A stretch of DNA of 64,000 nucleotides, taken from positions 1,488,001-1,552,000 of the forward strand of contig CANMVD010000001.1 in NCBI GenBank assembly GCA_947501275.1, read 5' to 3'. The position numbers and the translations under genes were made by a program. This document shows positions 5,703 to 48,071 of the stretch, one piece after another. Numbering within the stretch: position 1 is the stretch's first letter; each line of letters opens with the position of its first letter. The notes under the pieces are model-generated. The model searched no databases and was not told where the DNA came from. It saw nothing but the letters and a program-made list of their open reading frames with translations. The DNA is from an uncultured Tateyamaria sp. Its GTDB lineage: Bacteria; Pseudomonadota; Alphaproteobacteria; Rhodobacterales; Rhodobacteraceae.

Positions 5703-5734
5703 TGCCCGTCCCTCCCTGAAAGCCGAGACCGTCG

Positions 5735-18334: not shown

Positions 18335-18343
18335 GGGATGCTG

Positions 18344-23643: not shown

Positions 23644-23667
23644 AAGGGCGTTTCCCGGACAAGGGTT

Positions 23668-23692: not shown

Positions 23693-23703
23693 ATGTTTTG
23701 CGA

Positions 23704-25284: not shown

Positions 25285-25393
25285 CAAAAAGACTCCCTGT
25301 TCGTTTGGCGCTTGAGACGGTCCGAATCCATGTTCGACATCTGCGCCCTGAGAAAATGCTAGCTACCGCAAAAATCATTGCCAATACTCAATG

Positions 25394-25411
25394 CTATGCG
25401 ATTTTGCATAG
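25394..25411. promoter_or_regulatory. LysR-type operator candidate, CTATGC-N6-GCATAG
   Basis: A perfect 6 bp inverted repeat lies between the divergent peptide-ABC operon and the LysR gene, about 55 bases upstream of the LysR start. Position and symmetry fit a LysR binding site; the protein-DNA link is inferred. Confidence 0.45.
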
Positions 25412-25465
25412 AGCAATCCAAGTCCTTGATTGTTCGCCCGCCCTTACCAAAGAGAGGATGGCATC

Positions 25466-26377: not shown

Positions 26378-27915
26378 CGCGGCGGATGTGCCGACCACTC
26401 GGCATCCTCATCCATGGGATAATTCGGGCGAGGCAAGTGTCCGAACGGCCAACGGTCGTGGACCGGCGATGTCAATCCTGCCGTGTCGACTTCGTAAACC
26501 TGGTTTGGCGCGAACCAGCCCGAGAACCCTGCGCGAAAGTGGCCCCGGGATTTCACTACGACGGTTCGGGCGGCTGCGATATCCAGACCGAACATGTGAA
26601 AGAACACCGGGTCAGCGGTTTGCGTGCGATCCGAAATCACCACAACCGTTATGCCCCCAATGCGAAGTGCCGCAGACGGTCCTAAGGCCATGCTTCGACC
26701 CGCCGTCATGCCTCTTTCCCCCACCACATCGCCGTCATGCAGCGCCAGAACCTCCGCGTCCGCCTCAAAGGGTACGTCCCATTTTGCCCATTGGACCGAG
26801 GTGTCGCATGACCTGTTAAAGCTGGCCATGAACTGGCTTCCGAGGCCGACCCCATGGGCCTCGCGCGCAAGCTCGGGATCACAGAACGATCCAATCAGGC
26901 AGTCGCTCACGTCCGCTTTGCAAAGCGCCGCCAACAGCTCGGTCGTGCGACCGCTTCCACCGCCGCCGGGATTGTCGCCCGCATCGGAAAAAATCACCGG
27001 CTTTCGCGTTTGCGTGGCTGCAATCGCCACCGCATCGCCTAGGGATGCCAATTGCCGCACGAAGTCCTTGCGCAAAGACCAGGCCATGTCCGCCAGCTCC
27101 ATCGCCAAAGCTTCGGCAGTGTCTGCGTCTTCGCGGGCCGTCACCACAATGCTGAGCCCGTTGTCGGGGGTGTCGGAGAACAGGAAATTACCGAAAACAG
27201 AGACGTTTATGATTTCGCTTCGGTACTCGGCCTGTCTGCGTTGCCCATAGTCGATCAACGAGCCGTAAGGGTGTTCGGCACTGAGAAGCGTGATTGAGGC
27301 GGGAACCAGCGGCAGTTTGATATGAGCGATTTTTGGTCGAATGTCAGTTGCCAATATACGCCGCAGAGAAAAGGCGGCTTCTTCGCCGCGTTCGATCTGA
27401 TCCACGTGCGGATTTGTGCGGTAACCCACGATCACGTCGCAGGCATCGACCATGCGCTGAGAGATATTCGCGTGCAAATCAAGTGTCGCAATGATCGGAA
27501 CCTCTGAGCCGACCACTCTGCGAATGCGCGACATCAGCAATCCGTCGGGGTCGTGATCGTGTTCGGCGACCATGGCACCGTGATTGCAGATATAGACAGC
27601 GTCCACGGGTTCGGCCGCGCGCAGGCTGTCTTCGCATGTTGCAATGATCTCTTCGATCACCGCCGCGCGCACTGGCCCTGCTGGATGACTGGCCGCTAGC
27701 ATACAGGGCACGGGCGTCCAGTTTCCTGTCGCATCCATGGTGCGAACAAAGGTGGCGAACTCGGTCGCCAGTTTCGGTGTAGGTGACCTGGCCTCATCCA
27801 TCAGGTCTTCGCCGGTGAGCCAAGTCAGCGATGTGAAATCGCTTTTCTCGGCGGGCGGCGCAAAGCGGTTGGATTCAAGAATTGCACCAAGCAGAGCGAC
27901 CCTAGGATTTGGCAT
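26374..27915 (-). CDS. M81-family metallopeptidase (MlrC/microcystinase C type)
   Basis: A 513-residue zinc peptidase. Its likely metal ligands are D146 and H148 (TLDLHANIS) and H170 (YRTNPHVDQ), the arrangement known for MlrC. A glycine-rich segment SDAGDNPGGGGSGRTTELL lies in the C-terminal half. AAAGGAC precedes the ATG. In cyanotoxin degraders MlrC cleaves linear peptides. Here, next to a peptide importer and M20 enzymes, it probably serves in small-peptide breakdown. There are no mlrA, mlrB or mlrD genes nearby. Confidence 0.85.
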   Translation of the reverse strand: MPNPRVALLGAILESNRFAPPAEKSDFTSLTWLTGEDLMDEARSPTPKLATEFATFVRTMDATGNWTPVPCMLAASHPAGPVRAAVIEEIIATCEDSLRAAEPVDAVYICNHGAMVAEHDHDPDGLLMSRIRRVVGSEVPIIATLDLHANISQRMVDACDVIVGYRTNPHVDQIERGEEAAFSLRRILATDIRPKIAHIKLPLVPASITLLSAEHPYGSLIDYGQRRQAEYRSEIINVSVFGNFLFSDTPDNGLSIVVTAREDADTAEALAMELADMAWSLRKDFVRQLASLGDAVAIAATQTRKPVIFSDAGDNPGGGGSGRTTELLAALCKADVSDCLIGSFCDPELAREAHGVGLGSQFMASFNRSCDTSVQWAKWDVPFEADAEVLALHDGDVVGERGMTAGRSMALGPSAALRIGGITVVVISDRTQTADPVFFHMFGLDIAAARTVVVKSRGHFRAGFSGWFAPNQVYEVDTAGLTSPVHDRWPFGHLPRPNYPMDEDAEWSAHPPR

Positions 27916-33254: not shown

Positions 33255-34556
33255 TCAGACAAATCGATTCACAATGTTTTCGAGCCGTTCTTGCCTACCG
33301 GAATTTGGTTCGGGGTTAATAAGGTTCTTGCGGGTCAAGGACTCTATTTCTGTCAGATCTGAGTTCATCAACTTCTTGCCAAATTCGGTCTCCCAACCCG
33401 AATATCGTGCGGTACGCTGTTTCTCCAAAGCGCTGCTTTCATACAGAGCTGCTGCCGCTTTCAATCCCGCCGCACAGGTGTCCATTCCGCCAATGTGGCC
33501 CAGAATCAAGTCTTCAGGGTCAATTGACTGTCGGCGCAGCTTGGCGTCGAAGTTTGTACCGCCAGTTTTGAACCCACCAGCACGCAGCACTTCGTAGTAG
33601 GCCAGTGCTACTTCGGGAACGTTGTTGGGAAATTGATCCGTATCCCAACCGGATTGATAGTCATTTCGGTTCATGTCGATTGAACCAAAGATGCCCAACT
33701 CGCGCGCAAGAGCCAGCTCGTGTTCGAAGCTGTGCCCTGCCAAGATCGCGTGGCCTTGCTCAATGTTTACCTGCACCTCGCCTTCCAACCCGAATTCCTT
33801 TAGAAATCCATAGACCGTGGCGACGTCGTAATCGTATTGGTGCTTGGTCGGCTCTTGCGGTTTTGGTTCGATCAGGATCGCGCCTTTGAAGCCCGTCTTG
33901 TGCTTGTAGTCCACGACCATTTGCAGCATTCGGCCCGCTTGCTGACGTTCGCGCCCCAAGTCTGTGTTCAAAAGCGTCTCATAGCCTTCGCGCCCGCCCC
34001 ACAGTACATAGTTTTCTCCGCCGAGCTTCATCGTTGCGTCCATGCAGGTCTTGATGGTCGCGGCGGAAAAGGCGAACACCTCTGGATCGGGATTGGTCGC
34101 GGCACCAGCCATAAAACGACGATGCGAAAACAGATTTGCTGTACCCCACAGCAGTTTGACGCCTGTCTCGTCCATCTTTTCGGCGAAGTAATCGACAATT
34201 TCTTCAAGATTGCGCGTGTTTTCGGCGAAGTCCCGACCTTCGGGACGGACATCTGCATCGTGAAAACAAAAGAACGGGATGCCCAGTTTTTGGAACATGT
34301 CAAAAGCCACATCGGCCTTTACTTTGGCCAGTTCCATTGTGTCGCCAAACCAAGGACGCTCGAAGGTTTGTGCGCCGAATGGATCGCCGCCAGGCCAAGC
34401 AAAAGAGTGCCAATATGCTGCGGAAAAGCGTAGATGTTCTTTGAGCGATTTGCCCATCACAATCTCTTCGGGATTGTAGTGGCGAAAAGCAAACTCGTTT
34501 GCGCTGTCAGGCCCTTCAAATGGGATTGTGGGGATGTCTTTGAAGAAGTCGGTCAT
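33255..34556 (-). CDS. xylA: Xylose isomerase
   Basis: A 433-residue TIM-barrel isomerase (D-xylose to D-xylulose; the family also acts on glucose and other aldoses). Signature segments are visible: [12 protein letters not shown] with the catalytic histidine, [32 protein letters not shown] and [20 protein letters not shown]. The start at MTDFFKDIP (34556) is preferred to an in-frame ATG four codons upstream. It is the last gene of the minus-strand cluster. No xylulokinase gene is adjacent, so its product may be used by the cluster's own enzymes or by a distant kinase. Confidence 0.95.
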
Positions 34557-34587
34557 GTTTGGCTCCATGCTTGGGGCTATCAGCGGC

Positions 34588-35799
34588 TTAACGCTGTCTC
34601 AGAATGGTTTTCAGAGGTGTTTTTGGGTCCGCCAGTGCCGCAGGATCAGGCGTAACGCCGGCTTCCATGAGTTTCTGGATGATCTTGATGTCGCGTCCGA
34701 CTGCGTTCCCGTGGGCGAAGCCTGCCGCATAAGTAATGTGTCCGTTAGAGTCGGTTTCGAGTGCAATTGCGCCACCGCCTGCCAGGGGGCGCAGAATGTG
34801 AGATGCCTGTCCCATGCGCGTACCAACAACTTGCAGCGTGTGATCAAACTGGTCTGACCAAAACCAAGGCGGAGGGGCAGGATCTGGTGTGATGCCAGCC
34901 ATGGCTTGTCCGGCGCGAAAGCCCTGATCGGCTGCGACTTGCCAGGATTCGAACCTTGCCCGCGCCTCACCCGCGACTGGTACGTTGCAACAGTCACCTG
35001 CGGCGAAGATATTTGGTTCTTGAGTGGCGAAGCGTTCGTCGACAACGATCCCGTTCTCGACTTTCAAACCCGCCTGATCGGCAAGGTAGGTGATGGGCGC
35101 AGACCCAATGCCGATAATCACATGTTCGGCCCGGACGCCTTGCTCTGATGACAGGAAAGCTACATTGTCTTCAATCGTGGTGACGGACGTGGCGGTGTGT
35201 ATCGATACACCGCGATCTGCATGCAGCTGCTGCACCATTTGTGAAATTTCGAGTGGAACGGCACGGGCCAAAATCCGGTCATGCGCCTCGACCACATGCA
35301 CGAAAGCCTTCCGCGCAGAGAGGCACGCGGCCAGCTCCAAGCCGATGAAACCACCACCGATGATCAGCACATCCGCCCCTGCGGAGATGTTCCGAGCCAA
35401 AGTCAGTGCGTCGGAATAGCTGCGCAAGTAGCGCGGTTGTGCGTCATTCAATGCATCGGCAGGCAACCGTCGTGGGGCTGCGCCTGTTGCAAGCAGCAGC
35501 TTTGCATACGGTAGTGTTTCGTTGGTGCTGAGCGTCACCAATTGGGTGTTGCGGTCGATGCTGGTGACTTGGGTTGCGCGTCTGAGGTCTATGTCGTGAG
35601 ATTGATACCAATCATCTGGAAATATCGGCCGTAGCGGTGGTCCATCAGCGTCCCACTTGGACAGGGGAGGGCGTTCATAGGGTAACTGTGTGTCGTCCCC
35701 AATCAGTGTGATCCGACCCCGATATCCTGCCATGCGGGCACCGTGGGCCGCACTCACACCGCAGTGGCCGGCCCCAACAATGACAATTCCCTCTGTCAT
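34588..35799 (-). CDS. FAD-dependent ferredoxin reductase (MocF-like)
   Basis: A 403-residue NAD(P)H:ferredoxin/rubredoxin reductase. The FAD loop is [12 protein letters not shown] (6-17), the NAD loop [15 protein letters not shown], and the second FAD motif is [14 protein letters not shown]-terminal reductase extension holds [15 protein letters not shown]. It should pass electrons from NAD(P)H to the Rieske ferredoxin encoded three genes upstream. It overlaps the DUF4432 gene by 4 bases. MocF is a functional analogy to the rhizopine oxygenase system, not a verified orthology. Confidence 0.85.
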
Positions 35800-36971
35800 C
35801 CCCGACCCGAAAGTGTGCGAAACTTCCCAGACGGAATTGGAAATGGATCGTCCGGCTGCTTCTGCGTAGCTGTGATCGCGGCGTCGCTCTGTGCAATGTC
35901 GTTGGCGCTTGTCAGTACCTTCAAATTGACGCTGTATTGCCGCGTGTCACCATGTTCGAGCCAGATCATTTCGTCGCGCTCACGGGCGAAGCCGTTCCCC
36001 AAAACGTGATGGGTCGAAGGTTCGATGCCGAACGCGTAGCCGCCCGATTGCAGGTGTTGCCATTCGTATGTGCAGGGCAGTTCAGATTTGCTGGTCGTGA
36101 CTTCCAGACCCAGTGACAAGGCGTCGTTGACCAGTGCGATGGCGACTTTGCCGTTTGCATCAGGCGTCATTTCATGCTGCCAGACCTGTTCGCGGAACGT
36201 GTCTGCGGGGCCAGACGGACGCGCGTATCCAACGCCCTGATCTTCGTACGTGTCGGCATGGGCCGCCCAAACCACGTCTTCGATTGGGGCCACGTAGCGG
36301 GCACCATCGGACAGAACCGGGTAGCCCACGTTGATGTGGTAACACAGCATATGCGGTGTACGGTTGAAGCCGCGATTGCGGACCTCATCGTTGAGGTGAA
36401 TGTCGTTGGTGCCAACCTCGATTTCAATCCGGCGAGTCAACTCAAGGTCTTCGGCGAAGACCGCGGATTGGCGGACAACGCCTTCAGCCCACAAGAAGCA
36501 GCGGTCGCCCTCCCAGCGTTCGCCGTAGCTGGTCAGGCGCGCGGGCAGCATGCTGACGCGACCATGAATGCCGTAAGACGCAGTCGGTCGGCCGGGATAA
36601 TTGTATTCCAACACATCCGCCTGATATCCGCCAAGGATGTGATCCAGCCCGCAGGTCATCAAAAGCCCGGAGAAGGAACGCATGAACCCAAGTCCGTTTT
36701 CGCCTTCGGCATCATGGAGCGCCGGCGAGCGGAAACCTGCGGCAGAATTCCAGCCAATGGCCATGCCGTTGTAGTCACAACTGCCGATATCAAGGCAGCG
36801 GTCCACCATAAGGGTGAAGCGCAAGCCCGTACCGGTGCGAAACTCCAGCACCCTTTGCCCCGCTTCGGCGCCATCTGCCAGCGTCATGAGCCGCACCCCA
36901 GCGAATTGCGACAGGTCACCGGAGAGTGCGGCGACTTCGCGCCGGGACAGGTCTTGGCCGTAGAGTTTCAT
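35796..36971 (-). CDS. DUF4432 family protein (aldose-epimerase-like fold)
   Basis: A 391-residue protein of a family related to aldose 1-epimerases: GVRLMTLADGAEAGQRVLEF, DRCLDIGSCDYNGMAIGW, LLMTCGLDHILGG and HMLCYHINVGYPVLSDGA. Members are common in sugar catabolic operons; the reaction is not established. It is translationally coupled on both sides (4-base overlaps with the PanB-like gene and the reductase). It may open or epimerise the sugar handled by this cluster. Confidence 0.75.
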   Translation of the reverse strand: MKLYGQDLSRREVAALSGDLSQFAGVRLMTLADGAEAGQRVLEFRTGTGLRFTLMVDRCLDIGSCDYNGMAIGWNSAAGFRSPALHDAEGENGLGFMRSFSGLLMTCGLDHILGGYQADVLEYNYPGRPTASYGIHGRVSMLPARLTSYGERWEGDRCFLWAEGVVRQSAVFAEDLELTRRIEIEVGTNDIHLNDEVRNRGFNRTPHMLCYHINVGYPVLSDGARYVAPIEDVVWAAHADTYEDQGVGYARPSGPADTFREQVWQHEMTPDANGKVAIALVNDALSLGLEVTTSKSELPCTYEWQHLQSGGYAFGIEPSTHHVLGNGFARERDEMIWLEHGDTRQYSVNLKVLTSANDIAQSDAAITATQKQPDDPFPIPSGKFRTLSGRG

Positions 36972-37771
36972 TTGGCGGCATCCAGCTGCGACATGAATTC
37001 ATCCATCTCAGCCGGATCCATTCTTACGATGTGCCGGTCCTCTGGATACGCGAGGCTATCCACGTCAGCCTTGAATTCGCTGAAAGCGGCGATGCGTTCG
37101 TTTTGAAGCCGGGCATATTCGCCGTTGAAGTCGCGGTAGGTCTTGCCGTGGCGCGGCATCTTGCCTTGCGTCTGGCCTAGAATGTCATCTGCAAACAGGT
37201 ATTGCGCATCGCATCCGGTGCCTGCGCCCATGGAGATCAGGAAAAGCGAAGTGCGTTTGCAAATTTCCTCGGCGACCTCAACGGGCACAACTTCGATCTC
37301 TGCGCCAAATGCGCCGGCGGCCTCGTATTTGCGCACGGCGTCCATAATTTCCAATGCTGATTGCGCGGTCTTGCCAACTGCTTTGAAGCCGCCGGTCCAT
37401 GTGGCGCGGGATGGGATCAGACCCACATGACCGATTACGGGAATCGCTTCGTCGGCCATTTTCTTGACCGTTCCGAAACCGGCACTGCAGTAGACGGCGT
37501 CCGCACCTGCGCGGTACATCTGGAAGGACCATTTGAGGAAATCATCGGGGCCACCAATCTCATAAAAATTGTCGCCGGGCATGGAAAAGAGGCTGGGCGC
37601 TGCGTCGCGGTACTCAGGGTCGAGCAGCAGGGCAGGAGGGATCGATACGATGTCGATGCCCGCACGTTCTGCCGCTTCTGCTTCTTGCAGGGTGAGCACG
37701 CGCAACATGGACAATTGCCGTGTTCCGCGCATGGCGCGCAAGTCTGCGATGGTCGGTCTTTGACGGGGCAT
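36968..37771 (-). CDS. Divergent PanB (ketopantoate hydroxymethyltransferase) homologue
   Basis: A 267-residue TIM-barrel enzyme. The second half matches PanB well: PVIGHVGLIP, GGFKAVGKT, EIEVVPVEVAEEI with the catalytic glutamate, and SMGAGTGCDAQYLFADDILG. The first half does not. The metal-binding GDS motif of true PanB, expected after AGIDIV, is replaced by SIPPALLLD. It is embedded in a sugar cluster, not a pantothenate operon, and panC is absent. It probably catalyses a different C-C lyase, aldol or one-carbon reaction. Confidence 0.7.
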   Translation of the reverse strand: MPRQRPTIADLRAMRGTRQLSMLRVLTLQEAEAAERAGIDIVSIPPALLLDPEYRDAAPSLFSMPGDNFYEIGGPDDFLKWSFQMYRAGADAVYCSAGFGTVKKMADEAIPVIGHVGLIPSRATWTGGFKAVGKTAQSALEIMDAVRKYEAAGAFGAEIEVVPVEVAEEICKRTSLFLISMGAGTGCDAQYLFADDILGQTQGKMPRHGKTYRDFNGEYARLQNERIAAFSEFKADVDSLAYPEDRHIVRMDPAEMDEFMSQLDAAK

Positions 37772-37776
37772 TGCGC

Positions 37777-38094
37777 TTACTCGCTCAGTTGGATTTGGAT
37801 ATGACCATCGACAATGCGCACAGGGTATGTGCCCAGATGGTTGCAGGCGGGCAGGCGCGTGGCCTGTCCGGTTTTATAGTTGAACTGGCCGTTGTGTTTT
37901 GGGCATTCGATGATGTGATCCATCACCAGCCCATCAGCCAGATGCACCTGTTCGTGTGTGCATAGCCCGTCGGTTGCAAAGAACTCACCTTCGGGCGAAT
38001 GGTAGATGGCATAGCTGCGCGTGCCGTGGTCAAAACGGATGACATCCTCTTCTTCGATGTCATCGGTTACGCATACATCAATCCAGTCAGACAT
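37777..38094 (-). CDS. Rieske-type [2Fe-2S] ferredoxin (MocE-like)
   Basis: A 105-residue soluble electron carrier. The cluster ligands are C45, H47, C64 and H67 (CTHEQVHLADG, then CPKHNGQF), the Rieske pattern. The ATG at 38094 has GAGAGG upstream and lies 8 bases after the oxygenase stop. It should receive electrons from the FAD reductase and feed the membrane oxygenase, as MocE is proposed to do in rhizobial rhizopine breakdown. Confidence 0.9.
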   Translation of the reverse strand: MSDWIDVCVTDDIEEEDVIRFDHGTRSYAIYHSPEGEFFATDGLCTHEQVHLADGLVMDHIIECPKHNGQFNYKTGQATRLPACNHLGTYPVRIVDGHIQIQLSE

Positions 38095-38102
38095 GAGGCC
38101 TC

Positions 38103-39182
38103 TCAAATTTCGTGAAGGTCTTCGCGATAGGGTTTCGCGGTGGGCGGCAACGCGCGGCGGACATAGTAGTCTTCGTTGCGCAACTGGCGCAGGAACGCGG
38201 GGACCATTTCGCGGTAGCCATGCCAGATTGACGGGTTTGCCGCGGGCAGATCGTGTTTGATCAGATCATGCAGTTCGGGCAGGGCGTGGAACGGCACCAT
38301 CGGGAACATGTGGTGTTCGACGTGGTAGTTCATGTTCCAGTAAATAAAGCGGCTGACAGGGTTCATGAGAACGGTGCGGGAATTGAGCCGGTGGTCGGTG
38401 ACGTTGTCGGCCAGCCCGCCATGTTGCAAGAGCCCGGTCATCAGCATGTGCCAGCAGCCATACAGGCGCGGCCCGCCTATCAGGGCAAGCGGCAGCCAAG
38501 ATCCGATGGCGAAAGCGCTCGCAAGCGTTGCGGCATAGATCACCACATGTACGCGAGCGGCGGTAATGGCTTTGCTGCGTTCGGCGCTTGGCACAAAGCT
38601 TTCTTCGTGTTCCTGAAACACGCCGCCGGCGTTCAACAACAGGGCTTTTAGGGAATACCAAACGTCAAAGATGCCGACGAAATTCAGGATGACCTTCAGC
38701 AAATCAGGCGGACGCATCACTGCAATCTCCGCATCGCGCCCAACGATTACCGTATCAGTGTGGTGGCGCGCGTGGCTCCAGCGCCAGGTGACCGGGTTGC
38801 GCATCACCAGAAAGCTGGCGAACTGGTAAACCGCGTCATTCATCCAAGCGGTCTTGAACGCAGTCCCGTGGCCACATTCATGCCAGCGTGCATCACAGGC
38901 CGAGCCATAGAGTACGCCGTAGATCAGCATGACCGGCAGCACCCACCACGACCCCCAGAGCGCGACAACACCTGCACCGGACGCAAAGAGAAGGCCAATC
39001 CAGATCGCAGTGTCGCGGATCGCAGGGCCATCGCTGCGCTTCATCAGCGCCTTCATCGCCTTGCGGTCCACATCCGTGTGGTACCAGTCGGCAGATGCAA
39101 GGCCACGCTCAAAGGCTTGCTGCGCGTTCTGTTCAGACAGTCGATAATCGCGTGGCGGAATGTCGGTTGTCGTTGAAGTCAC
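38103..39182 (-). CDS. Membrane di-iron oxygenase, fatty-acid-desaturase superfamily (MocD-like)
   Basis: A 359-residue integral-membrane protein with helices around residues 58-98 and 208-250. The histidine boxes of the desaturase/hydroxylase superfamily are complete: HECGH (101-105), HARHH (137-141), HVEHH (287-291), with extra histidines at 254 and 264. Next to a Rieske ferredoxin and a ferredoxin reductase it forms a full three-component monooxygenase. The nearest functional analogue I know is MocD of rhizopine catabolism, thought to demethylate O-methyl-scyllo-inosamine. The substrate here is unknown. Confidence 0.85.
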   Translation of the reverse strand: MTSTTTDIPPRDYRLSEQNAQQAFERGLASADWYHTDVDRKAMKALMKRSDGPAIRDTAIWIGLLFASGAGVVALWGSWWVLPVMLIYGVLYGSACDARWHECGHGTAFKTAWMNDAVYQFASFLVMRNPVTWRWSHARHHTDTVIVGRDAEIAVMRPPDLLKVILNFVGIFDVWYSLKALLLNAGGVFQEHEESFVPSAERSKAITAARVHVVIYAATLASAFAIGSWLPLALIGGPRLYGCWHMLMTGLLQHGGLADNVTDHRLNSRTVLMNPVSRFIYWNMNYHVEHHMFPMVPFHALPELHDLIKHDLPAANPSIWHGYREMVPAFLRQLRNEDYYVRRALPPTAKPYREDLHEI

Positions 39183-39214
39183 GATTGGCTCCTGTGCTTT
39201 GACGTTTTGGGAGG

Positions 39215-39238
39215 CCCCGAACCGATGCGGGTCCGGGG
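39215..39238 (-). promoter_or_regulatory. Intercistronic hairpin upstream of the mocD-like gene
   Basis: CCCCGAACC (39215-39223) pairs with GGTCCGGGG (39230-39238) with one mismatch and a 6-base loop. It lies in the 63-base gap between the isomerase/epimerase and oxygenase genes and may tune relative expression within the operon. Confidence 0.45.
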
Positions 39239-39245
39239 GAGTGAA

Positions 39246-40160
39246 TTACAGACCGTTTTCCAGTAGCTTTTGGTCCAGGAAGGCTTTGGCGCGTGGCACG
39301 TCGCTTTCATCCAGATGCTCAATGATCATCGAGATGTTCGGGTGCTTCTTGGCCAATCGCTGAAGGTAGAGGTCATAATTCAGCACACCCAGACCCGGGG
39401 CAGGCAGTTCAATGGCACCGACACCGCGGAATGTGTGGCTTTCGGCGGCGTCATCATCGCCGATATCGGCATGCTTTTCCGCGCCATCATCTTCGGCGCG
39501 CGCGACATCCTTGGCGTGGGCCAGATAGATCTTGTCGGACAGGGCATCAAAGACTTGGTTCAGTGTCTCGTCCATCTTGTCGATGTTATGGTCCTCGAAG
39601 TAGTTCGTAGGATCCATGATCAGCCCCAGTCCGGGGTGATCCACCTCAGCAAACATGCGCAACGTTTCCTCGACAGAACCGACGACGTTGTTCACATAGG
39701 TTTCCAGCAGGAACACCGCGCCATGGTCGTAGGCGTATTGGGCCAGTTCCGCGATCACTGTGCGGCAATCGTCCCAGCCCTCTTCGGTTTTGTTCTTAGG
39801 GTGGTGGACCCAGTCACTTTCAGTGTCGAACGTGCCCGTTTCCGAACAGACAAAGGGTGAGCCGAGGTACTGTGCGTGGCGCAAGATCTCCTTGAACCGG
39901 TCGAGCAGTACTTTGCGCTTGTCGGGGTCGGGATTGATGATGTTCGTATAACACGAGATGGCCGAGACCGGCAGGTGATGACGCCGAAATGTCTCGCGGA
40001 CCTGAATGCACTTGTCCTTGGTGATCTGTCCGTCGGATACGTCCAAATCTTTGAAATGCATATCAAGTTGGACGCAGTTGAAGTCATGCGCCCGGATGAC
40101 CTTGGCGGTCTCTTCCAGCGTGTAGGGGAAATACCCTGAGAATATCCCTGTTTGCATCAT
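39246..40160 (-). CDS. Sugar phosphate isomerase/epimerase (AP-endonuclease-2 fold, MocC/IolE-like)
   Basis: A 304-residue TIM-barrel protein of the xylose-isomerase-like superfamily. It begins TGIFSGYFPYTLEETAKVIR and has metal-site segments FVCSETGTFD, FLLETYVNNVVG, GLGLIMDPTNYFED and IYLAHAKDVARAEDDG. MocC and IolE belong to the same superfamily. The following gene pair (Gfo/Idh upstream, oxygenase downstream) matches the gene content of rhizopine/inositol loci. It probably isomerises, epimerises or dehydrates the oxidised sugar; the reaction is inferred. Confidence 0.85.
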   Translation of the reverse strand: MMQTGIFSGYFPYTLEETAKVIRAHDFNCVQLDMHFKDLDVSDGQITKDKCIQVRETFRRHHLPVSAISCYTNIINPDPDKRKVLLDRFKEILRHAQYLGSPFVCSETGTFDTESDWVHHPKNKTEEGWDDCRTVIAELAQYAYDHGAVFLLETYVNNVVGSVEETLRMFAEVDHPGLGLIMDPTNYFEDHNIDKMDETLNQVFDALSDKIYLAHAKDVARAEDDGAEKHADIGDDDAAESHTFRGVGAIELPAPGLGVLNYDLYLQRLAKKHPNISMIIEHLDESDVPRAKAFLDQKLLENGL

Positions 40161-40178
40161 TGTTCCGTTCCTCCCGTT

Positions 40179-41264
40179 TTAGTGTTTGATGTCGTTCATG
40201 TTCACGGTTTTTCCGTGTTCGATTGATTGATACGCGGCCTCGACCAATGCCATTGTGCGGACGTTGTCGGCCACGTTCAGTACCGGTTCCGTCCCGGTCT
40301 CGACCGCGTATTGCAGCTGTTCCATCACGCCGATGAATGCATGCGGGAACCACATGGTGTCCCACTCCGGCGTGACCCATTTCCCGTCCGAATGGGTGGC
40401 ACTTGCATAGCTAAGCGTGGACGGCGCGCCTGTCGGCCAGCCGATGCTGCCTTTGGCGACACCTTTGGTGCCTTCGACGCGCCACGTGATGGTTTGGTCA
40501 TCTTCGAACCCCTCTTCACGGGGCCCGGCCCAGACATCTTCGAGCGAGAGTGCCAGAACGCCAGAGGCAAAGCGCAGTGTTGTGGCGACAATGCCGTCAT
40601 CATGTGAAAAGGCAGTGCGCGGATCTTGGCGCGTGACTGATGTAACCTCGGTCACTTCGCCAAAGAGGAAGCGTAGAGCGTCCAGGTGATGAACACTCAT
40701 GTTCGCCAGAGTCAGACGATCATAGTCTTCCAAGAAACCCTGCCAATGGGGGATTGCGTTCATGTTGATCTGAGCAAATACGGGATCACCAAGCGCGCCC
40801 ATGTCCAAAAGCTGCTTGAGCACTTGCATGGATTGGTCAAAACGCATGTTCTGGTTGACCGATAGTATTTTGCCGGCGGCTGCGGCTTCGTCCCTAAGGG
40901 CAATCGCCTCATCCAAGGTCAGCGCCAGCGGCTTTTGCGCAAGGATCGCTTGGACGTTTGGTGCGGCCAGCGCCGCGCGGATCAACGCGGGCTGTTGGTC
41001 GGGGGGATAGGCGATATCGACAATCTCAACGTCCTGATCGGCGATGAGGGATTCCGGTGTGTCATGGACAATTGGGATCGACCAGCGATCCGCTACCGTC
41101 TTGGCGCGGGATTTGGTGCGCGATGCAATGGCCACAACGTCAAACCCGGCCTCAGCGTAGGCCGCGAGGTGGCACTCGGCCATGATCATACCAGCGCCGA
41201 TACAGCCGATTTTGTATGTCTTCACCCGGATGGCCGGGTCGGGTTGCAGGACCAGTTTTGTCAT
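40179..41264 (-). CDS. Gfo/Idh/MocA-family oxidoreductase
   Basis: A 361-residue NAD(P)-dependent sugar or cyclitol dehydrogenase. The Rossmann loop is IGCIGAGMIMAECHL (about residues 18-32). The family catalytic motif appears as AILAQKPLALTLDEAI. A C-terminal alpha/beta domain follows. The start at 41264 is preferred because the upstream extension is antisense noise. It lies between the transporter ATPase and the isomerase and likely performs the first oxidation of the imported compound. Confidence 0.88.
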   Translation of the reverse strand: MTKLVLQPDPAIRVKTYKIGCIGAGMIMAECHLAAYAEAGFDVVAIASRTKSRAKTVADRWSIPIVHDTPESLIADQDVEIVDIAYPPDQQPALIRAALAAPNVQAILAQKPLALTLDEAIALRDEAAAAGKILSVNQNMRFDQSMQVLKQLLDMGALGDPVFAQINMNAIPHWQGFLEDYDRLTLANMSVHHLDALRFLFGEVTEVTSVTRQDPRTAFSHDDGIVATTLRFASGVLALSLEDVWAGPREEGFEDDQTITWRVEGTKGVAKGSIGWPTGAPSTLSYASATHSDGKWVTPEWDTMWFPHAFIGVMEQLQYAVETGTEPVLNVADNVRTMALVEAAYQSIEHGKTVNMNDIKH

Positions 41265-41280
41265 TTTCAGTTGCCTTTCT

Positions 41281-42306
41281 TCATGCCGCGGGCAGTGCGT
41301 TGCCGCGCGCGTCAAAACAATGCAGGCTACCGGCATCCACGCTAAGCTGCACGGGCGCGCCGATCTCATGGGCTGGCTGGCCCCGTAGCGCGGCTTTCCA
41401 CGTGATGCCCGCAGTTTCCACCGAAAGCACAGTGGTTGCGCCAAGCGGTTCGATCGCTGTGACACGCCCGGGACCATCCTTGCGCGCCACCTTCAGGTTT
41501 TCAGGTCGTATGCCGACCGTTTTGGCGTTTCGGTTCATCCTTGGTGTATGCGAGAGCACTTGCACAGCCTCCGAGGCATCCGCCATGTTCATTGCAGGAG
41601 CGCCCAGCATAGACGCGACATAAGCGCTGTTTGGTGCATCATAGAGGTCATGCGGCGCGCCGATCTGGCGGACGCGGCCCTGTTCGAGAATGAGCATTTG
41701 GTCAGAAACCGACATCGCCTCTTCCTGATCGTGGGTCACGTAGATCAGCGTTTTGGCCATATCCTGCTGCATCCGTCGCAGTTCAACGCGTGTTTCTTCG
41801 CGCAAACGCGCATCAAGAGCTGAAATGGGATCGTCCATCAGATAAGCGACGGGATCGCGCACCAGCGCTCGGGCAATCGCCACGCGCTGCCGTTCGCCGC
41901 CGGACAATTGGGCAGGCGGTTTGTGCAAAATATGCGCCATATGCAGCTTTTCAGTTACCTCTGCGACGCGCGCTTGGATCGTGGCCTCGTCGATTTTGCG
42001 TTCCACCAATGGGAAACGCACGTTGTCCAAAGCGCTCATATGCGGAAACAAGGCTAGGTTTTGGAAAACCATGGCCACATTCCGGTCCGACGGTCCGACA
42101 TTGCGCATCGGGCGATCATCAAAGAAGATCTCGCCGCTATCAGGTGTCTCAAGTCCGAGGATCAGTTTCAGGATTGTGGACTTTCCCGACAGGGGAGGAC
42201 CAAAAAAGCAGAAGAACGCGTTGTCAGGCACTTCAAAGCTGACCCGGTCCACCGCGCGCAGATCGCCATAGGATTTGGAGACGTTTTCAAACCGAATAGA
42301 AGCCAT
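41281..42306 (-). CDS. Sugar/polyol ABC transporter ATP-binding protein 1 (MalK-like, DD-type Walker B)
   Basis: A 341-residue CUT1-type ATPase with a C-terminal TOBE region. Walker A is GPPLSGKST (36-44) and the signature LSGGE (134-138) is canonical. Walker B reads LMDDP (156-160), so the catalytic glutamate is replaced by D159. The partner ATPase has the reverse pattern. Its ATG shares a base with the partner's TGA (TGATG). Two unlike ATPases in one operon also occur in the rhizobial glycerol importer (GlpS/GlpT). Confidence 0.9.
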   Translation of the reverse strand: MASIRFENVSKSYGDLRAVDRVSFEVPDNAFFCFFGPPLSGKSTILKLILGLETPDSGEIFFDDRPMRNVGPSDRNVAMVFQNLALFPHMSALDNVRFPLVERKIDEATIQARVAEVTEKLHMAHILHKPPAQLSGGERQRVAIARALVRDPVAYLMDDPISALDARLREETRVELRRMQQDMAKTLIYVTHDQEEAMSVSDQMLILEQGRVRQIGAPHDLYDAPNSAYVASMLGAPAMNMADASEAVQVLSHTPRMNRNAKTVGIRPENLKVARKDGPGRVTAIEPLGATTVLSVETAGITWKAALRGQPAHEIGAPVQLSVDAGSLHCFDARGNALPAA

Positions 42307-43400
42307 CAGTGCGCCCTCCCTTTCAGTGCTTGGCCCGAGGTGGGATCAAACAGTCGAATGGCCTCATCGGAGGCCGAAAAGGTCCAGTCGCTTCCCGCAA
42401 GTGGCGGTGTTGCGTCAGATGGTAGAACCGCTTTTGCAGTTGAGCCGCTATGTTCCAGATGCACGATCGTGCGCGCACCAATCCGCTCAACAAACCCAAC
42501 ATGCATGGTGAGGCCGGATTGAGATGCGTTCACCTGTTCGGGACGAAACCCAATCTGAATGTTTGGCGCTTTCTTGTCTTTTGCGGCAGCTTGCAGCGTT
42601 GGCGGCACATCAAGCGTGCCCAGACCGGGGACTTCCACCGCGACCACACCTGCATTTTCAACAAAGCGACCGTTCAGGATGTTCATCCCCGGCGCGCCAA
42701 TGAACTTGGCCACGAACGTGTCTGCAGGCGCGTTGTAGATGTCCAGCGGTGTGCCGACCTGCAACAACTTGCCGTGGTCCATAACCGCAATCCGGTCAGC
42801 CATTGTCATGGCTTCCAATTGGTCATGGGTTACATAGACCATGGTTTGATCGAACTCGCCTTGTAGGCTTTTCAGCTCGGACCGCATGACCGCACGAAAT
42901 GCGGCATCGACATTGGACAGCGGCTCGTCCAGCAAGAAAATTGAAGGTTCCAGAATAGCCGACCGACCAATGGCGAGACGTTGCAGGATGTTAACGGAAA
43001 GGCCGGCGGCGCGGCGGTCCAACATGGTGTCGAGTTGCAAAAGCTCCGCGAACGCTTGAACCCGCTTGTTGATCTCTGCCGCTGGGGTGCCTTGTGCCCG
43101 CAATCCGTAAGCCAGATTTTCACGCACCGACATATGGGTGAAGATCGCGTAGTTTTGGAAAACGAAGCCGACGCCGCGCTTGGCCATTGGTACGTCAACC
43201 ACATCTCGACCGTTGAAACGAATGGCACCTGAGGACGGGCGCAACATGCCTGCGATCATGTTCATGGTTGTCGATTTCCCGCAGCCCGACGGACCCAGCA
43301 ATGCCATGAATTCGCCGTTGGCAATCGTCAGGTTCATCTCCGCCAATGCGGTGAAATCGCCAAAGGTTTTGCCGAGGTTTTCGAGTGCAATCTCGCTCAT
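42306..43400 (-). CDS. Sugar/polyol ABC transporter ATP-binding protein 2 (degenerate signature motif)
   Basis: A 364-residue ATPase with canonical Walker A GPSGCGKST (36-44) and Walker B LLDEP (156-160). The ABC signature is LSVNI (134-138) instead of LSGGQ. A TOBE-type C-terminus follows. The start at 43400 ([14 protein letters not shown]) overlaps the permease stop by 4 bases. Combined with ATPase 1 it would make one competent ATP site (its own Walker motifs plus LSGGE of subunit 1) and one degenerate site. Confidence 0.9.
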   Translation of the reverse strand: MSEIALENLGKTFGDFTALAEMNLTIANGEFMALLGPSGCGKSTTMNMIAGMLRPSSGAIRFNGRDVVDVPMAKRGVGFVFQNYAIFTHMSVRENLAYGLRAQGTPAAEINKRVQAFAELLQLDTMLDRRAAGLSVNILQRLAIGRSAILEPSIFLLDEPLSNVDAAFRAVMRSELKSLQGEFDQTMVYVTHDQLEAMTMADRIAVMDHGKLLQVGTPLDIYNAPADTFVAKFIGAPGMNILNGRFVENAGVVAVEVPGLGTLDVPPTLQAAAKDKKAPNIQIGFRPEQVNASQSGLTMHVGFVERIGARTIVHLEHSGSTAKAVLPSDATPPLAGSDWTFSASDEAIRLFDPTSGQALKGRAH

Positions 43401-44335
43401 GGTTTTTGCCCCCGCTGCATGCGCTTGATGGCAAACACTGACACGACGGACAGCACGATCAGGATCGCAAGGGCAATGGCCGCGACGTAGCTCCAGATGA
43501 GTTCCTGCTGTGTCACCTTGTAGATGTAAACAGAGATAGTTTCGGTTGCGACGCCGGGGCCACCACCTGTCATGATGAACAGCGTGTCGAAGATTTTGAA
43601 TATCTCGATGACGCGAATGGCCAGTGCAATGATGATGATCGATTTCATGCGCGGCAGGACGATGGTGAAGAAGCGTCGCCACCATGATGCGCCTAGCAGG
43701 ATGGCCGCCATTTGCTGGTCTTGTGGCACGCTGATCATGCCAGCCAACAGGATCAGGAACATCAGCGGCGTCCACTGCCAGATGTCGGCGATCATCACGG
43801 CGATCAGGGCAAGATCAGGATCTGACAGCCAAGCGATGCGCACGGGATCACTGGTGAAAAAAGACAGGAGGTCATTCACAGGACCGCCTGACTGGAACAG
43901 CATGAAGAACATGTATCCCGCCACCGCAGGCACAACCATCATCGGCACCAGAAGCGTGGAATAAAGCACGCGCTTTCCGCGAAAGTCGTCGACAAAAAGG
44001 ACCGCCAGTCCGAGACCCAGCAGGAACTGGACCGGCACACAAATGGCCATCACAAACATGGTCCGCCATAAGGCGCCCCAAAAGCGGTTATCCGCCATCA
44101 GGTCAGCGTAGTTGAGCAGCCCAATCCAAAGCTCATGCGCCTTCCACCACGGGATGCCGTCCAGTGGCGACCAGTCGGTCAGCGAGATGTAGACCTGCAT
44201 CAAAATCGGGAACAGCGCGATAAACAGGACAAGCAGTTGCGCGGGCAATGTCAGCCAAAGACCCAGACGTGCGCTTTGCGTTGCGGGCGCGTCGATCTTT
44301 TCAACAGCAGGTGCCATGGCGGAGACGTTGGTCAT
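43397..44335 (-). CDS. Sugar/polyol ABC transporter permease 1 (MalF/UgpA type)
   Basis: A 312-residue inner-membrane permease with about six hydrophobic helices and the CUT1 EAA-type loop ([20 protein letters not shown], then LPRM). It starts 4 bases inside the end of permease 2 and overlaps the ATPase gene by 4 bases. It forms the translocation channel with permease 2. Confidence 0.9.
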
Positions 44336-45192
44336 TCTTTTAAGGCTCCGAAGGTCAGGCCGCGCACGAGATGCTTTTGAATGGCGATGCCCATGATAAT
44401 CGGGGGCACAGCCGCGATCACGCCTAAGGCAGCTTTGGCACCATAGAGTTGTCCGGTCATCGAGGATGATAGTGATGCCATGTAGACAGGGATCGTTGCC
44501 CAGTCGCGTGTCGTCAGCAAAAGCGCGATCAGGTAGTCAGACCAATTCAGGATAAAAACAAACAGCGCAGATGAGGCGAGCGCGGGGCGCATCATGGGCA
44601 ATGTAATCCGCACAAAGACGCGCCAGCGTGTGCAGCCTTCAACCAGTGCCGCGTCTTCGATCTCGCGTGGCATGTCGTCAAAGAAGGTTTTCATCAGCCA
44701 GAAAGCAAAGGGCAGTGTGACGATGCCGTAGATGAGCGACAATCCGAACCAGTTGTCGATCAGGCCCAGAAAGGACCACATGATCATGACGGGGATCATT
44801 ACCGCCATCGGTGGGAATAGCCGCAACTGGATCAGAGCCAATGGCAGGTTGCCACCCTGGCCGAAGCGGGAAAGACCGTATGCTGCCGACGTTCCCGCCG
44901 TCATCGCAATCAGTGTGCCACAGGTTGCCGTGAGCAATGACGCAAAGATTGGGCGTCCTGCCGTGCGTTCTAATGCGACGATCAGATCAGTAGAGGATTG
45001 ACCAAAGATGAACCGGAAATTGTCCAGCGTCGGGTTGCGTGGCCACCACGTCAGATCGGCACCCGCTGCAGACCATTCGGCAATCGGCTTGAATGCCATA
45101 GAGATCATCCAAAGCGTCGGCACGAGCGAAACGGCGACAATACCAAGGATCACGGCGTATCGGAAAATCTCGAAAGGGATCGAGCGTTGCAT
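44332..45192 (-). CDS. Sugar/polyol ABC transporter permease 2 (MalG/UgpE type)
   Basis: A 286-residue permease with helices typical of MalG-type proteins, the segment [16 protein letters not shown], and the ATPase-contact loop [20 protein letters not shown] then TLPMM. It follows the binding-protein gene after a 73-base gap that contains a perfect stem-loop. Confidence 0.9.
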
Positions 45193-45221
45193 CGGTCATC
45201 CAAATTCAAATGAGCAGTTTA

Positions 45222-45252
45222 GAAGAGGCAGGCGGGAGGCACCTGCCTCTTC
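45222..45252 (-). promoter_or_regulatory. Intercistronic stem-loop after the sugar-binding-protein gene
   Basis: GAAGAGGCAGG (45222-45232) and CCTGCCTCTTC (45242-45252) form a perfect 11 bp stem with a 9-base loop. It lies between the binding protein stop and the first permease. No long T-run follows on the minus strand. It is the third instance of this arrangement in the window. Confidence 0.75.
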
Positions 45253-45265
45253 TCGTCGGCGGCAA

Positions 45266-46867
45266 TCAGACGGGATCAACCAAGTCTGGCCATGCTGCTT
45301 TATTGGCGCGCACCGCTTCGACAAGCTTGTCTTCGCCAACTCTGCGCGCAATGCGCTTCCATTGGCGTTCGGTGTTTGCCATGGCGTCTGCGGCTGACAT
45401 CGAACCGGTCAGGGCTGCTGTCAGGTTTTCGTCCAGCGCGTTGTGGAAGGCTGTGGCGCCCGGATAGTTGATGGTTGGCACCGTGCGGCGTACGGACTCG
45501 CGGACAATGTCCATGTGGTAATCATGGTAGGTTTCGCGCACCAACGGGTCTGCGAAGTTGGCCAGTTGGAACGGATCAAAGAAGCCGCCCGGGTTTGCCG
45601 TCATCCATGAATAGATGCGTGATGAGCCAAGCCATTGCAGGAACAGATAGCACAGCTCAGGATGTTCTGACTGGGTCGATACGGAGGCCGAGAGGTTGAA
45701 CCAAAGCACGGTCCGGCTGATGCGCCCATCTGCATGGTCTCGACCCGGTGGCAGGTGTGATCCGACTTTGCCCGTGACGCTAGAGCCGTCGTTGGCCGGA
45801 TTGTCTAGGAATTTCGGTAGGTTGGAGAACGCGCAGGTCATTGCTGCCCCACCGGTGGCAAAGTTGCCGTATTGCTCTGGCCAGCCCCATGAGATCGCAT
45901 CGGCCGAATGATGCGACAGCGATGCAACGTATTCTTCCGTGGCCAATACGCCTTGTTCGGAATTGATCAGTGCGGTGCCGTCATCGGCAAACAGGAACTG
46001 ATTGGGTGATGCCATCGTTACATAGCGTTGATACCAGTTGGTATAGCCCCAGCCTTGATTGCGAAGATCACTACAGCCGATCAAACCATCGTCGGGGCGG
46101 TGGAAAAAGGCTGCGATCTCATCATGTTCTTTCCACGTTTTCGGTGGTGCCAATGCGTAGCCGTGTTTGTCTGCAAAGGCGGCTTGCTCAGCAGCGTCTC
46201 CAAAGAGGTCCGTGCGGTGGTTCCAGGTTTGGAAATCGCCATCAAGGCAAACCCCATAGGTGGAGCCGCGGTACCCGTTGAGCAGGCTTACACCCTGTTC
46301 ACCGCCCACATAGCCGCGCTCTGGCGCTTCCCATTCAGGTTTGTGGGTCTCGACATATTCGTCGAGGTTCACGATGCCGCCGGATTCAGCCAGATCGCCC
46401 AGACGGTTCCATTCCACGGCGTAGATATCAAATCCGCCGCCCTTGGTTGAAATGTCTTGCATCACTTTGGTGAACTCTTGGCCGTTGGGCACACCAACGA
46501 TGTCCAATGTGATGCCGGTCTCCTGTTCCCACAGCTCTTTGATCGACGGCGCCCCGGCAGGGAATGGCTGCGTGATCTGACCGATGGAGCCATCTGACAA
46601 CCCCAAAACGATGCGTTCAGGTGCTGATCCTGCGTCTTTCATGCTGCGCACAGCTTCGATAGCGCGGCCCTCTGGCGTATCGGCCCCGTATTGATAGCGC
46701 TCAGCGCCATCAAAGCCGGTGGGGCCGCCGATCATACCATCGGCCAACCCAGAGGCGGCGCGCGCGCGATCAGGCCGCAGATAGAGTGGTGTCGCAACCG
46801 CGAGGGCCGCAGCACCTGATGAAGACGCCAGAAACGAACGTCGTGACAGTTTCGATTGAATAGGCAT
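45266..46867 (-). CDS. ABC transporter extracellular solute-binding protein, Tat-type signal
   Basis: A 533-residue periplasmic protein of the CUT1 solute-binding type. The N-terminus KLSRRSFLASSSGAAALAVA is a twin-arginine signal. The mature chain carries TGITLDIVGVPNGQEFTKVM and GGFDIYAVEWNRLGDLAESG. The start at 46867 has GGGAGGG five bases upstream; a longer frame to 46942 has no such site. It is the first gene of the 12-gene cluster and is divergent from the LacI regulator. Its length (over 500 residues) fits the GlpV-like group better than typical sugar-binding proteins. Confidence 0.88.
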   Translation of the reverse strand: MPIQSKLSRRSFLASSSGAAALAVATPLYLRPDRARAASGLADGMIGGPTGFDGAERYQYGADTPEGRAIEAVRSMKDAGSAPERIVLGLSDGSIGQITQPFPAGAPSIKELWEQETGITLDIVGVPNGQEFTKVMQDISTKGGGFDIYAVEWNRLGDLAESGGIVNLDEYVETHKPEWEAPERGYVGGEQGVSLLNGYRGSTYGVCLDGDFQTWNHRTDLFGDAAEQAAFADKHGYALAPPKTWKEHDEIAAFFHRPDDGLIGCSDLRNQGWGYTNWYQRYVTMASPNQFLFADDGTALINSEQGVLATEEYVASLSHHSADAISWGWPEQYGNFATGGAAMTCAFSNLPKFLDNPANDGSSVTGKVGSHLPPGRDHADGRISRTVLWFNLSASVSTQSEHPELCYLFLQWLGSSRIYSWMTANPGGFFDPFQLANFADPLVRETYHDYHMDIVRESVRRTVPTINYPGATAFHNALDENLTAALTGSMSAADAMANTERQWKRIARRVGEDKLVEAVRANKAAWPDLVDPV

Positions 46868-46933
46868 TTTTCCCTCCCAAGGGATCTGAACGTCCCCACT
46901 GCATGCAGAGTTGATTGGAAATGATCCTTTCGC

Positions 46934-47032
46934 AAACATCATTGGCCTTCATTTCAGACCATTTTCCACCTATTAGCTTGGTGAAGCTCTGAAATGACGG
47001 AAAAACTCTTTTCTTTCGTAGAAATGATGTTT
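46934..47032. promoter_or_regulatory. Nested inverted repeats between the sugar cluster and its LacI-type regulator
   Basis: Inner arms CATTTCAGA (46950-46958) and TCTGAAATG (46988-46996) are perfect 9 bp repeats. Outer arms AAACATCATT (46934-46943) and AATGATGTTT (47023-47032) are perfect 10 bp repeats. Both pairs fall in the divergent promoter region. They are candidate operators of the LacI-family regulator; which pair it uses is not visible. Confidence 0.5.
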
Positions 47033-47069
47033 TTTGATGGGCAAAGATGGTTCCAATCGAGGCACAGCC

Positions 47070-48071
47070 GTGAAAGTCACTTTGGCAGAAATCGCACAGG
47101 AGGCCGGAGTTTCGGTCACGACTGTGGATCGTGTCCTGAACGACCGCACAGGCGTACGCGAGCGCACACGCAACATCGTGTTGGAAATCGCACGGCGACG
47201 CGGCTGGTTTGGCCCGGTTGAAGAAGAAAGTGCGATCCGGATGGATTTCGTCCTGCCTGCCGGCAGCAATTCGTTCATGGGCTTGTTGCATCAATACCTG
47301 CTGGAAGAGGCGCGCAACTATGGCGGTATTCAACCAATGGTACATGTGGTCGACGGCCTTGATCCCGATCATATGGCTTTGCGTCTGAACTCATTGGTGG
47401 GCAAAACGGATGCGGTCGGGCTAGTGACTTTGGACCACCCGTCAGTACGTGCCGCCATCGAGAATCTGTCGGAAAATGGAGTGCCTGTCGCATCATTGGT
47501 GTCAGACCTGCCGTCTTTGCAAAAGGCGGGTTACATTGGGATCGACAACCGTTCTGCTGGGCGTTTGGCCGGATTATTGATGGGGCGGTTCTTGCATCCA
47601 GACAAAGACCATAACGTTGTTATCGTCATTGGTTCCTTGAGCTATCGAGGCCATGAAGAGCGTGAAATGGGTTTCAAGTCCATTCTTGCGCAGGACTACC
47701 GCAATCTGACGATCTCGGAAATCGTGGAGGTTAGCGACGATCGCGACCGCGCATATGATGAAATGCGCCGTATTCTCGCAGGCAACCCGCCGTCTGCAAT
47801 ATACAGCATCGGTTCCGGGAACCAAGGAATCGGACAAGCCTTAAGTGAAGCACGGATTCATAAGGAAACAGTATTTATTGCCCATGATTTGACGAGCGCG
47901 ACGAAACGGATGCTTTTGGATGGAACGCTGGACGCCGTGATCGATCAAAATCCAAGGGTGGAGGCGCGCGAAGTGGTGAAATTGCTTGCTTCTGCAGTTC
48001 GTGGTGCCGCCGAGCCTCAATACTTGCCACGCTTGCAAGTGGTGTTTGCCGAGAACATTCCTGAATTGTGA
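47070..48071 (+). CDS. LacI-family transcriptional regulator
   Basis: A regulator of about 333 residues. The N-terminal helix-turn-helix (VTLAEIAQEAGVSVTTVDRV, then LNDRTGVRERT) is followed by a periplasmic-binding-protein-like sensor (MDFVLPAGSNSFMGLLHQYL, IGIDNRSAGRLAGLLMGRF). The GTG at 47070 has a GAGG site seven bases upstream and puts the HTH right at the N-terminus. An in-frame ATG at 47037 without such a site would add 11 residues and start only 4 bases past the outer inverted repeat. It is divergent from the 12-gene sugar cluster and presumably represses it until the sugar or an intermediate binds. Confidence 0.85.
   Translation: MKVTLAEIAQEAGVSVTTVDRVLNDRTGVRERTRNIVLEIARRRGWFGPVEEESAIRMDFVLPAGSNSFMGLLHQYLLEEARNYGGIQPMVHVVDGLDPDHMALRLNSLVGKTDAVGLVTLDHPSVRAAIENLSENGVPVASLVSDLPSLQKAGYIGIDNRSAGRLAGLLMGRFLHPDKDHNVVIVIGSLSYRGHEEREMGFKSILAQDYRNLTISEIVEVSDDRDRAYDEMRRILAGNPPSAIYSIGSGNQGIGQALSEARIHKETVFIAHDLTSATKRMLLDGTLDAVIDQNPRVEAREVVKLLASAVRGAAEPQYLPRLQVVFAENIPEL

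Follow-up and report, generated by a model that had tools for sequence, protein, structure and literature searches.

A putative O-methylated-sugar catabolic operon of an uncultured Tateyamaria sp., with a MocDEF-type oxygenase and a PanB-like protein that may pass a one-carbon unit to folate

Algae and plants commonly contain methylated sugars and cyclitols, and to our knowledge the bacterial removal of their methyl groups is known for few cases. The closest described system is the catabolism of rhizopine (mocDEF, mocR, mocBA and mocC) in Sinorhizobium, Rhizobium and Phyllobacterium, and a cytochrome P450 reportedly removes the O-methyl group of 6-O-methyl-D-galactose oxidatively in marine bacteria. 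In the sarcosine oxidase operon, which carries purU, the methyl carbon leaves as 5,10-methylene-tetrahydrofolate (PMC3691474, in part). Formaldehyde and folate react spontaneously, but so slowly that the reaction has been discounted as a route; Fae, the formaldehyde-activating enzyme, works with tetrahydromethanopterin (PMC7073904, in part). For these two reasons, an enzyme that captured the methyl carbon on folate would matter. We know of no folate enzyme that loads the one-carbon unit of a demethylation onto tetrahydrofolate. Here we analyzed a stretch of 64,000 nucleotides from an uncultured Tateyamaria sp. (the window; positions 1,488,001 to 1,552,000 of contig CANMVD010000001.1, assembly GCA_947501275.1) that carries, at 33255-46867, an operon in which an oxygenase of the rhizopine type stands with sugar genes and a PanB-like gene.

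With moderate confidence, we read this locus as an O-methylated-sugar catabolic operon whose PanB-like protein would pass the one-carbon unit to folate. The PanB-like partner of the oxygenase is a more interesting finding than the observation from which the analysis started, the original prediction of a 12-gene minus-strand cluster under a LacI regulator. Pfam and NCBIfam scans confirmed all of the genes named there, placed 13 closely packed genes on the minus strand and showed the LacI-family gene to be divergent. The features are as follows.

33255..34568, minus strand: XylA, xylose isomerase, the genome's second copy, accessory (TIGR02630)
34588..35799, minus strand: MocF-type ferredoxin reductase dependent on flavin adenine dinucleotide (FAD) (PF07992 and PF14759)
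35796..36971, minus strand: DUF4432 protein, probable aldose mutarotase-like enzyme (PF14486, 308.3 bits)
36968..37771, minus strand: PanB-like protein, proposed acceptor of the one-carbon (formaldehyde or hydroxymethyl) unit, working with the oxygenase (PF02548, 128.7 bits)
37777..38094, minus strand: MocE-type Rieske [2Fe-2S] ferredoxin (TIGR02377; ATG start at 38094, from the reading frame)
38103..39182, minus strand: MocD-type di-iron membrane oxygenase, proposed O-demethylase (PF00487, 122.6 bits; GTG start)
39246..40160, minus strand: sugar isomerase/epimerase (SIE) of the AP_endonuc_2 family (PF01261)
40179..41264, minus strand: Gfo/Idh/MocA sugar dehydrogenase (PF01408 and C-terminal domains; start set by the frame)
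41281..42306, minus strand: ATP-binding cassette (ABC) importer, ATPase 1 (PF00005 and TOBE_2)
42306..43400, minus strand: ABC importer, ATPase 2 (PF00005 and OB_MalK; trimmed, as a longer open reading frame, to 43775, would overlap the permease)
43397..44335, minus strand: ABC importer, permease 1 (PF00528)
44332..45192, minus strand: ABC importer, permease 2 (PF00528)
45266..46867, minus strand: solute-binding protein of 533 residues with an RRSFL twin-arginine-like N-terminus (PF01547)
46868..47033, no strand: divergent intergenic region, likely operator/promoter (from the sequence)
47034..48071, plus strand: LacI-family regulator, divergent (PF00356 and PF13407)

The scans agreed with the predicted assignments of the Gfo/Idh dehydrogenase, the SIE, DUF4432, PanB-like and xylose isomerase proteins, the ABC importer and the LacI regulator, and the same gene order was found in three uncultured Tateyamaria contigs, whose PanB-like proteins are 90-94% identical. 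The predicted three-component monooxygenase was likewise found to be complete. Its MocD-type protein has three histidine boxes, HECGH (residue 101), HARHH (137) and HVEHH (287), its MocE-type ferredoxin has the Rieske motif CTH-x17-CPKH and scored above the cut-off of the NCBIfam 'MocE family' model TIGR02377 (163.8 vs 136.15 bits), and the FAD ferredoxin reductase (34588-35799) lies in the same operon. MocD is 67.5-71% identical to the four copies compared, and 67.5-68% identical to those of two clusters whose gene content is that of rhizopine catabolism (68% at L096); the counterparts at L096 and L098 are 62-65% (MocE), 58-60% (PanB-like) and 40-42% (reductase) identical. These values bear out the proposed likeness to the rhizopine moc oxygenase. 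The Gfo/Idh protein, by comparison, is just 27-29% identical to three relatives across about half its length, and the LacI protein is 27% identical to the one beside MocDEF in R. rosettiformans (L099). Since MocD and MocE are so similar and Gfo/Idh is not, the oxygenase unit is common to this operon and the rhizopine clusters, with different sugar genes attached. By sequence, the oxygenase is of the rhizopine (MocDEF) type, and its O-demethylating activity is putative. The MocD-type and SIE proteins had no relatives in a PDB sequence search at E <= 0.001.

The original prediction had suggested a search for co-occurrence of these families in other genomes. Searching with the PanB-like protein gave 46 loci in named genomes, chiefly of Mesorhizobium and Rhizobium, some of them truncated at contig ends. 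All 46 have MocD no more than 3 kb from the PanB-like gene; 43 have DUF4432 (within 8 kb), 42 have SIE (9 kb), 42 have Gfo/Idh (10 kb) and eight have a MocF (3 kb). The gene arrangement is thus not due to chance, and the conserved core consists of Gfo/Idh, SIE, DUF4432, MocD, MocE and the PanB-like gene.

Sixteen annotated plasmid regions were opened. Three of these match published rhizopine units (PMC10107442, in part) in having a pyridoxal-phosphate-aminotransferase-type MocR, a sugar-binding protein and a Gfo/Idh protein beside MocD-E-F, and from this gene content they are presumed to be rhizopine clusters. All three carry the reductase, then the PanB-like gene, then purU; the MocD of one cluster, L057, lacks an annotation and matches in two pieces. 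Another ten regions carry a MocD-MocE unit with the PanB-like gene among other genes, including clusters with LacI and a TIM-barrel protein and three regions with iolG. The last three are without MocD: in two Bradyrhizobium plasmids the PanB-like gene adjoins an enzyme annotated to the sterol-desaturase family, along with a Rieske ferredoxin, a TIM-barrel protein and a reductase, and an R. lentis region holds the PanB-like gene, a reductase and, two annotated genes on, purU. The oxygenase unit is therefore modular and is combined with different sugar genes. The PanB-like enzyme had originally been listed among the sugar genes; instead it belongs with the oxygenase, which it follows across different sugar gene sets.

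This association extends to oxygenases of other families. The PanB-like genes were examined in two samples of 22 places each, the first being 23 places less the window and the second 25 less the window and two already in the first. In the first sample, 12 places have a labelled oxygenase within 1.5 kb and 13 have one within 3.5 kb; the corresponding numbers in the second are 11 and 18, compared with none at 15 canonical PanB loci (about 1.5 kb on each side). PhyH adjoins the PanB-like gene at three places in the genome samples (L067, L073 and L087), a Rieske oxygenase at one (L089) and sterol-desaturase-type relatives at two (L151 and L152), and at L066 a PF04116 protein lies beside MocD. In a sample of 385 genomes, in which the 20 genomes with a PanB-like gene fall in 12 families, a MocD-like protein was present in 10 of the 20 (the window's included) and in 14 of the 365 others (p = 1.5e-8, phylogeny not corrected). 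The PanB-like gene hence goes with oxygenases and not with one sugar.

Among individual places, three genomes of 1.4 Mb (94-99% complete; L063, L064 and L065) have a MocD-like gene directly beside the PanB-like gene and no labelled sugar genes, and at L063 the pair is followed by DUF1800 and DUF1501 genes. A single 1.6 Mb genome (G161; L066-L069 and L086) has five MocD-like genes and four PanB-like places, with PhyH, FA_hydroxylase and a sugar-acid-type dehydratase as neighbors, which suggests a specialist in demethylation. Two distant PanB-like genes (L074 and L088, 39% identity) lie near a threonine dehydratase, with no oxygenase seen among the scanned neighbors.

The sequence of the PanB-like protein places it outside PanB. 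It scored below the cut-off of the PanB equivalog model TIGR00222 (94.3 vs 207.55 bits). Structurally it has the PanB fold, and the nearest folds after PanB are C-C lyases and mutases. Residues were compared between 27 PanB-like and 12 PanB proteins, with numbers 84-181 agreeing with the alignment to 1m3u, at the positions Asp45, Asp84, Lys112 and Glu114, which we take to be the Mg/keto-acid residues of PanB. Asp84 is present in one of the 27, Lys112 and Glu114 in none, as against 11, 12 and 11 of the 12 PanB proteins, and Asp45 is present in two of the 27 (where the alignment is uncertain) vs all 12. His136 and Glu181 of PanB are kept, and Thr124, Glu158, Phe193 and His208 are invariant in the 27 and present in none or one of the 12. 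These substitutions indicate that the keto-acid site of PanB has been lost. Pantothenate synthesis was considered as the role of this gene and rejected, as a true PanB is found elsewhere in the genome.

The genes of folate metabolism provide a second line of association. Of the close loci, 45 extend far enough to judge, and in 16 of these (15 Mesorhizobium, one Rhizobium) purU lies directly downstream of the PanB-like gene. It has the same position in four of the 16 regions from plasmids, in one of which folD follows purU. The presence of purU and folD next to the oxygenase unit in these relatives fits the release of a one-carbon unit. Formate-tetrahydrofolate ligase scored over the cut-off in 19 of the 20 genomes with a PanB-like gene, the window's genome among them, vs 160 of the 365 others (p = 3e-6, phylogeny not corrected). 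The twentieth genome has PurU, which at E <= 1e-20 occurs in three of the 20.

From these observations, we infer a series of reactions, with a methylated sugar as the substrate and folate as the acceptor. The ABC importer would take up the O-methylated sugar, and MocD, receiving electrons from MocF through MocE, would hydroxylate the O-methyl group to O-CH2OH. Next, the PanB-like protein may take up the one-carbon unit, either from the hemiacetal or as free formaldehyde, and transfer it to tetrahydrofolate to give 5,10-methylene-tetrahydrofolate, from which FolD, followed by formate-tetrahydrofolate ligase here or PurU in relatives, would yield formate. DUF4432, Gfo/Idh and SIE, joined in this lineage by XylA, would convert the freed sugar to a ketose for central metabolism.

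A broader proposal is more tentative, namely that the PanB-like proteins make up a widespread family, so far mis-annotated, of folate-dependent formaldehyde-capturing enzymes, a folate counterpart of Fae, loading the methyl carbon of many oxidative demethylases (MocDEF, sterol-desaturase-type, PhyH and Rieske) onto tetrahydrofolate without releasing formaldehyde. The family has 6210 members at E <= 1e-25; among the best 120 of these, every protein that carries a source name is labelled 3-methyl-2-oxobutanoate hydroxymethyltransferase. Should the PanB-like protein carry out the reaction of formaldehyde with folate enzymatically, it would fill a gap in one-carbon metabolism, add a missing step to rhizopine catabolism, correct the label of this large family and make the PanB-like gene a sequence marker for undiscovered demethylation pathways. 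Among the open-access matches listed, none proposed a PanB-like protein as a demethylation partner; an earlier remark elsewhere is possible. The terms panB, pantothenate, hydroxymethyl and purU are all absent from the main text of PMC3538637. The nearest case is a PanB-annotated gene ('C1-moiety transfer') at 3640-4548 of a fragment from Filomicrobium sp. Y, found with gcvT in a methanesulfonate monooxygenase region (PMC4433239, in part). Methanesulfonate monooxygenase is another formaldehyde-yielding oxygenase.

Several points weigh against the folate reading and the association on which it draws. The 13 of 22 places in the first sample are partly circular, as the oxygenase references came in part from that sample; the second sample is fairer, and is itself rich in one family (f174), while one of its 18 places (L147) is a Rieske oxygenase 3.3 kb off on the other strand. 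No labelled oxygenase was found within 3.5 kb in nine places of the first sample. One of the nine is cut by a contig end (L059), and at another (L062) a Rieske ferredoxin occurs with purU and an SIE-type protein. The other seven are distant members (L070, L071, L072, L074, L083, L088 and L090), which showed no oxygenase among those of their neighbors that were scanned with Pfam. In the second sample, again among the neighbors scanned, none was found within 3.5 kb at four of the 22 places, two of which (L149 and L150) have a Rieske ferredoxin and, 7.4 kb away, a sterol-desaturase-type relative; the other two (L154 and L155) have none. Asp45 is a less certain loss than the other residues, as the loop is shortened and 10 of the 27 proteins have an Asp one column over. 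Formate-tetrahydrofolate ligase is common (179 of the 385 genomes). Finally, the window's genome has no PurU at E <= 1e-20 and encodes a glutathione-dependent formaldehyde dehydrogenase, and for these reasons a folate route is not required.

That dehydrogenase also fits an alternative that we consider unlikely, in which the sugar is demethylated, formaldehyde is freed to the glutathione pathway and the PanB-like protein is an aldolase or lyase of the carbon skeleton with the PanB/isocitrate-lyase fold, as its nearest folds after PanB might suggest. A lyase specific for one skeleton would not be expected to track the oxygenase across different sugar gene sets, nor to occur with other oxygenases as well. 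Lyases of this fold also need a metal site, and here the PanB Mg/keto-acid site has lost residues.

Less probable still is a reading with no methyl group involved, in which the sugar itself, or some other small polar molecule, is what the oxygenase hydroxylates or desaturates. The two weak NCBIfam matches of MocD are to arginine hydroxylase and fatty-acid desaturase, so small-molecule hydroxylation would be within the range of related enzymes. Against this stand the 68% identity to MocD of clusters with rhizopine gene content, rhizopine being a compound with an O-methyl group (PMC3538637, in part), and the linkage to purU and folD. That the oxygenase works on lipids or alkanes and is a mere neighbor of the sugar genes, as its Pfam name FA_desaturase and five other PF00487 genes in the genome could imply, is highly improbable given the gene neighborhood common to 46 loci of several genera and the dedicated MocE-family ferredoxin.

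A methylated aldose is the best guess for the substrate. The original prediction of an O-methyl sugar is partly supported by the rhizopine-type oxygenase and by purU and folD in relatives; its use of xylose isomerase as a clue to an O-methyl pentose fared less well. XylA is a true xylose isomerase by score (664.7 bits vs the TIGR02630 equivalog cut-off of 533.25), and it lies within 6 kb in three of the 46 related loci, those of Tateyamaria only, so that it is an add-on outside the conserved system. Given this distribution and the second xylA of the genome, which adjoins xylB (G000:C3), XylA is weak evidence for an O-methyl pentose, and on both grounds xylose catabolism was rejected as the purpose of the operon. 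Either xylose or glucose as the product of demethylation would suit XylA, though the enzyme is not conserved. The sole PDB relative of the DUF4432 protein at E <= 0.001 is 3ty1, a hypothetical aldose 1-epimerase (E 1.1e-27). The model of the SIE protein is weak (predicted local distance difference test score, pLDDT, of 67) and allows a remark at the level of the fold, which resembles ketose 3-epimerases and YcjR, a 3-keto-glucoside 4-epimerase. The importer carries sugar-importer domains by Pfam, with an SBP_bac_1 binding protein that has one weak PDB relative, and its domain set is presumably that of a CUT1-type sugar importer. An O-methyl sugar is the best available reading.

The cluster has no inositol genes, as had been stated, and an inositol route was rejected for this genome, in which the best IolE score, 177.6 bits, fell short of the family cut-off of 290. 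In the divergent intergenic region (46868..47033), neither a sigma-70-like site nor an inverted repeat was found; it has one terminator-like site, a count similar to that in shuffled sequences. Elsewhere in the window, an L-rhamnose catabolic cluster lies at 275-10941, with RhaA isomerase, an aldolase/short-chain dehydrogenase-reductase (SDR) fusion, a DeoR regulator, a ribose-type ABC importer and an FGGY kinase. Rhamnose is a main sugar of the algal polysaccharide ulvan, and the cluster would fit a life on algal sugars. A further group at 16949-27915 has a peptide-type ABC importer, two M20 peptidases, a LysR regulator and an M81/MlrC-type metallopeptidase.

Among known systems, the operon is closest to rhizopine catabolism in its oxygenase, ferredoxin and reductase (40-68% identical), and three presumed rhizopine clusters share the PanB-like gene, there followed by purU. 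Unlike that system, it has LacI instead of MocR, an SBP_bac_1 importer instead of the MocB type, a Gfo/Idh protein just 27-29% identical and no inositol genes, with DUF4432 and XylA added; judged by its genes, it is not the rhizopine system. The system for 6-O-methyl-D-galactose uses a P450 rather than a di-iron membrane enzyme, and is not known to include a PanB-like gene. From PanB itself, the ketopantoate hydroxymethyltransferase, the PanB-like protein differs in the loss of Asp84, Lys112, Glu114 and probably Asp45. Rhizobial plasmid clusters with LacI, MocDEF and the PanB-like gene (compare the fixV-homologue clusters of PMC3538637, in part) have the order MocD-MocE-(MocF)-PanB-like in common with the window; unlike the window, they have ribose-type importers beside four, iolG after three and no XylA in the tables examined. 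The glyA-soxBDAG-purU sarcosine oxidase operon is alike in joining an oxidative demethylation to folate recycling by PurU (PMC3691474, in part). Sarcosine oxidase makes methylene-tetrahydrofolate itself, whereas in the operon described here a separate protein, the PanB-like one, would do so.

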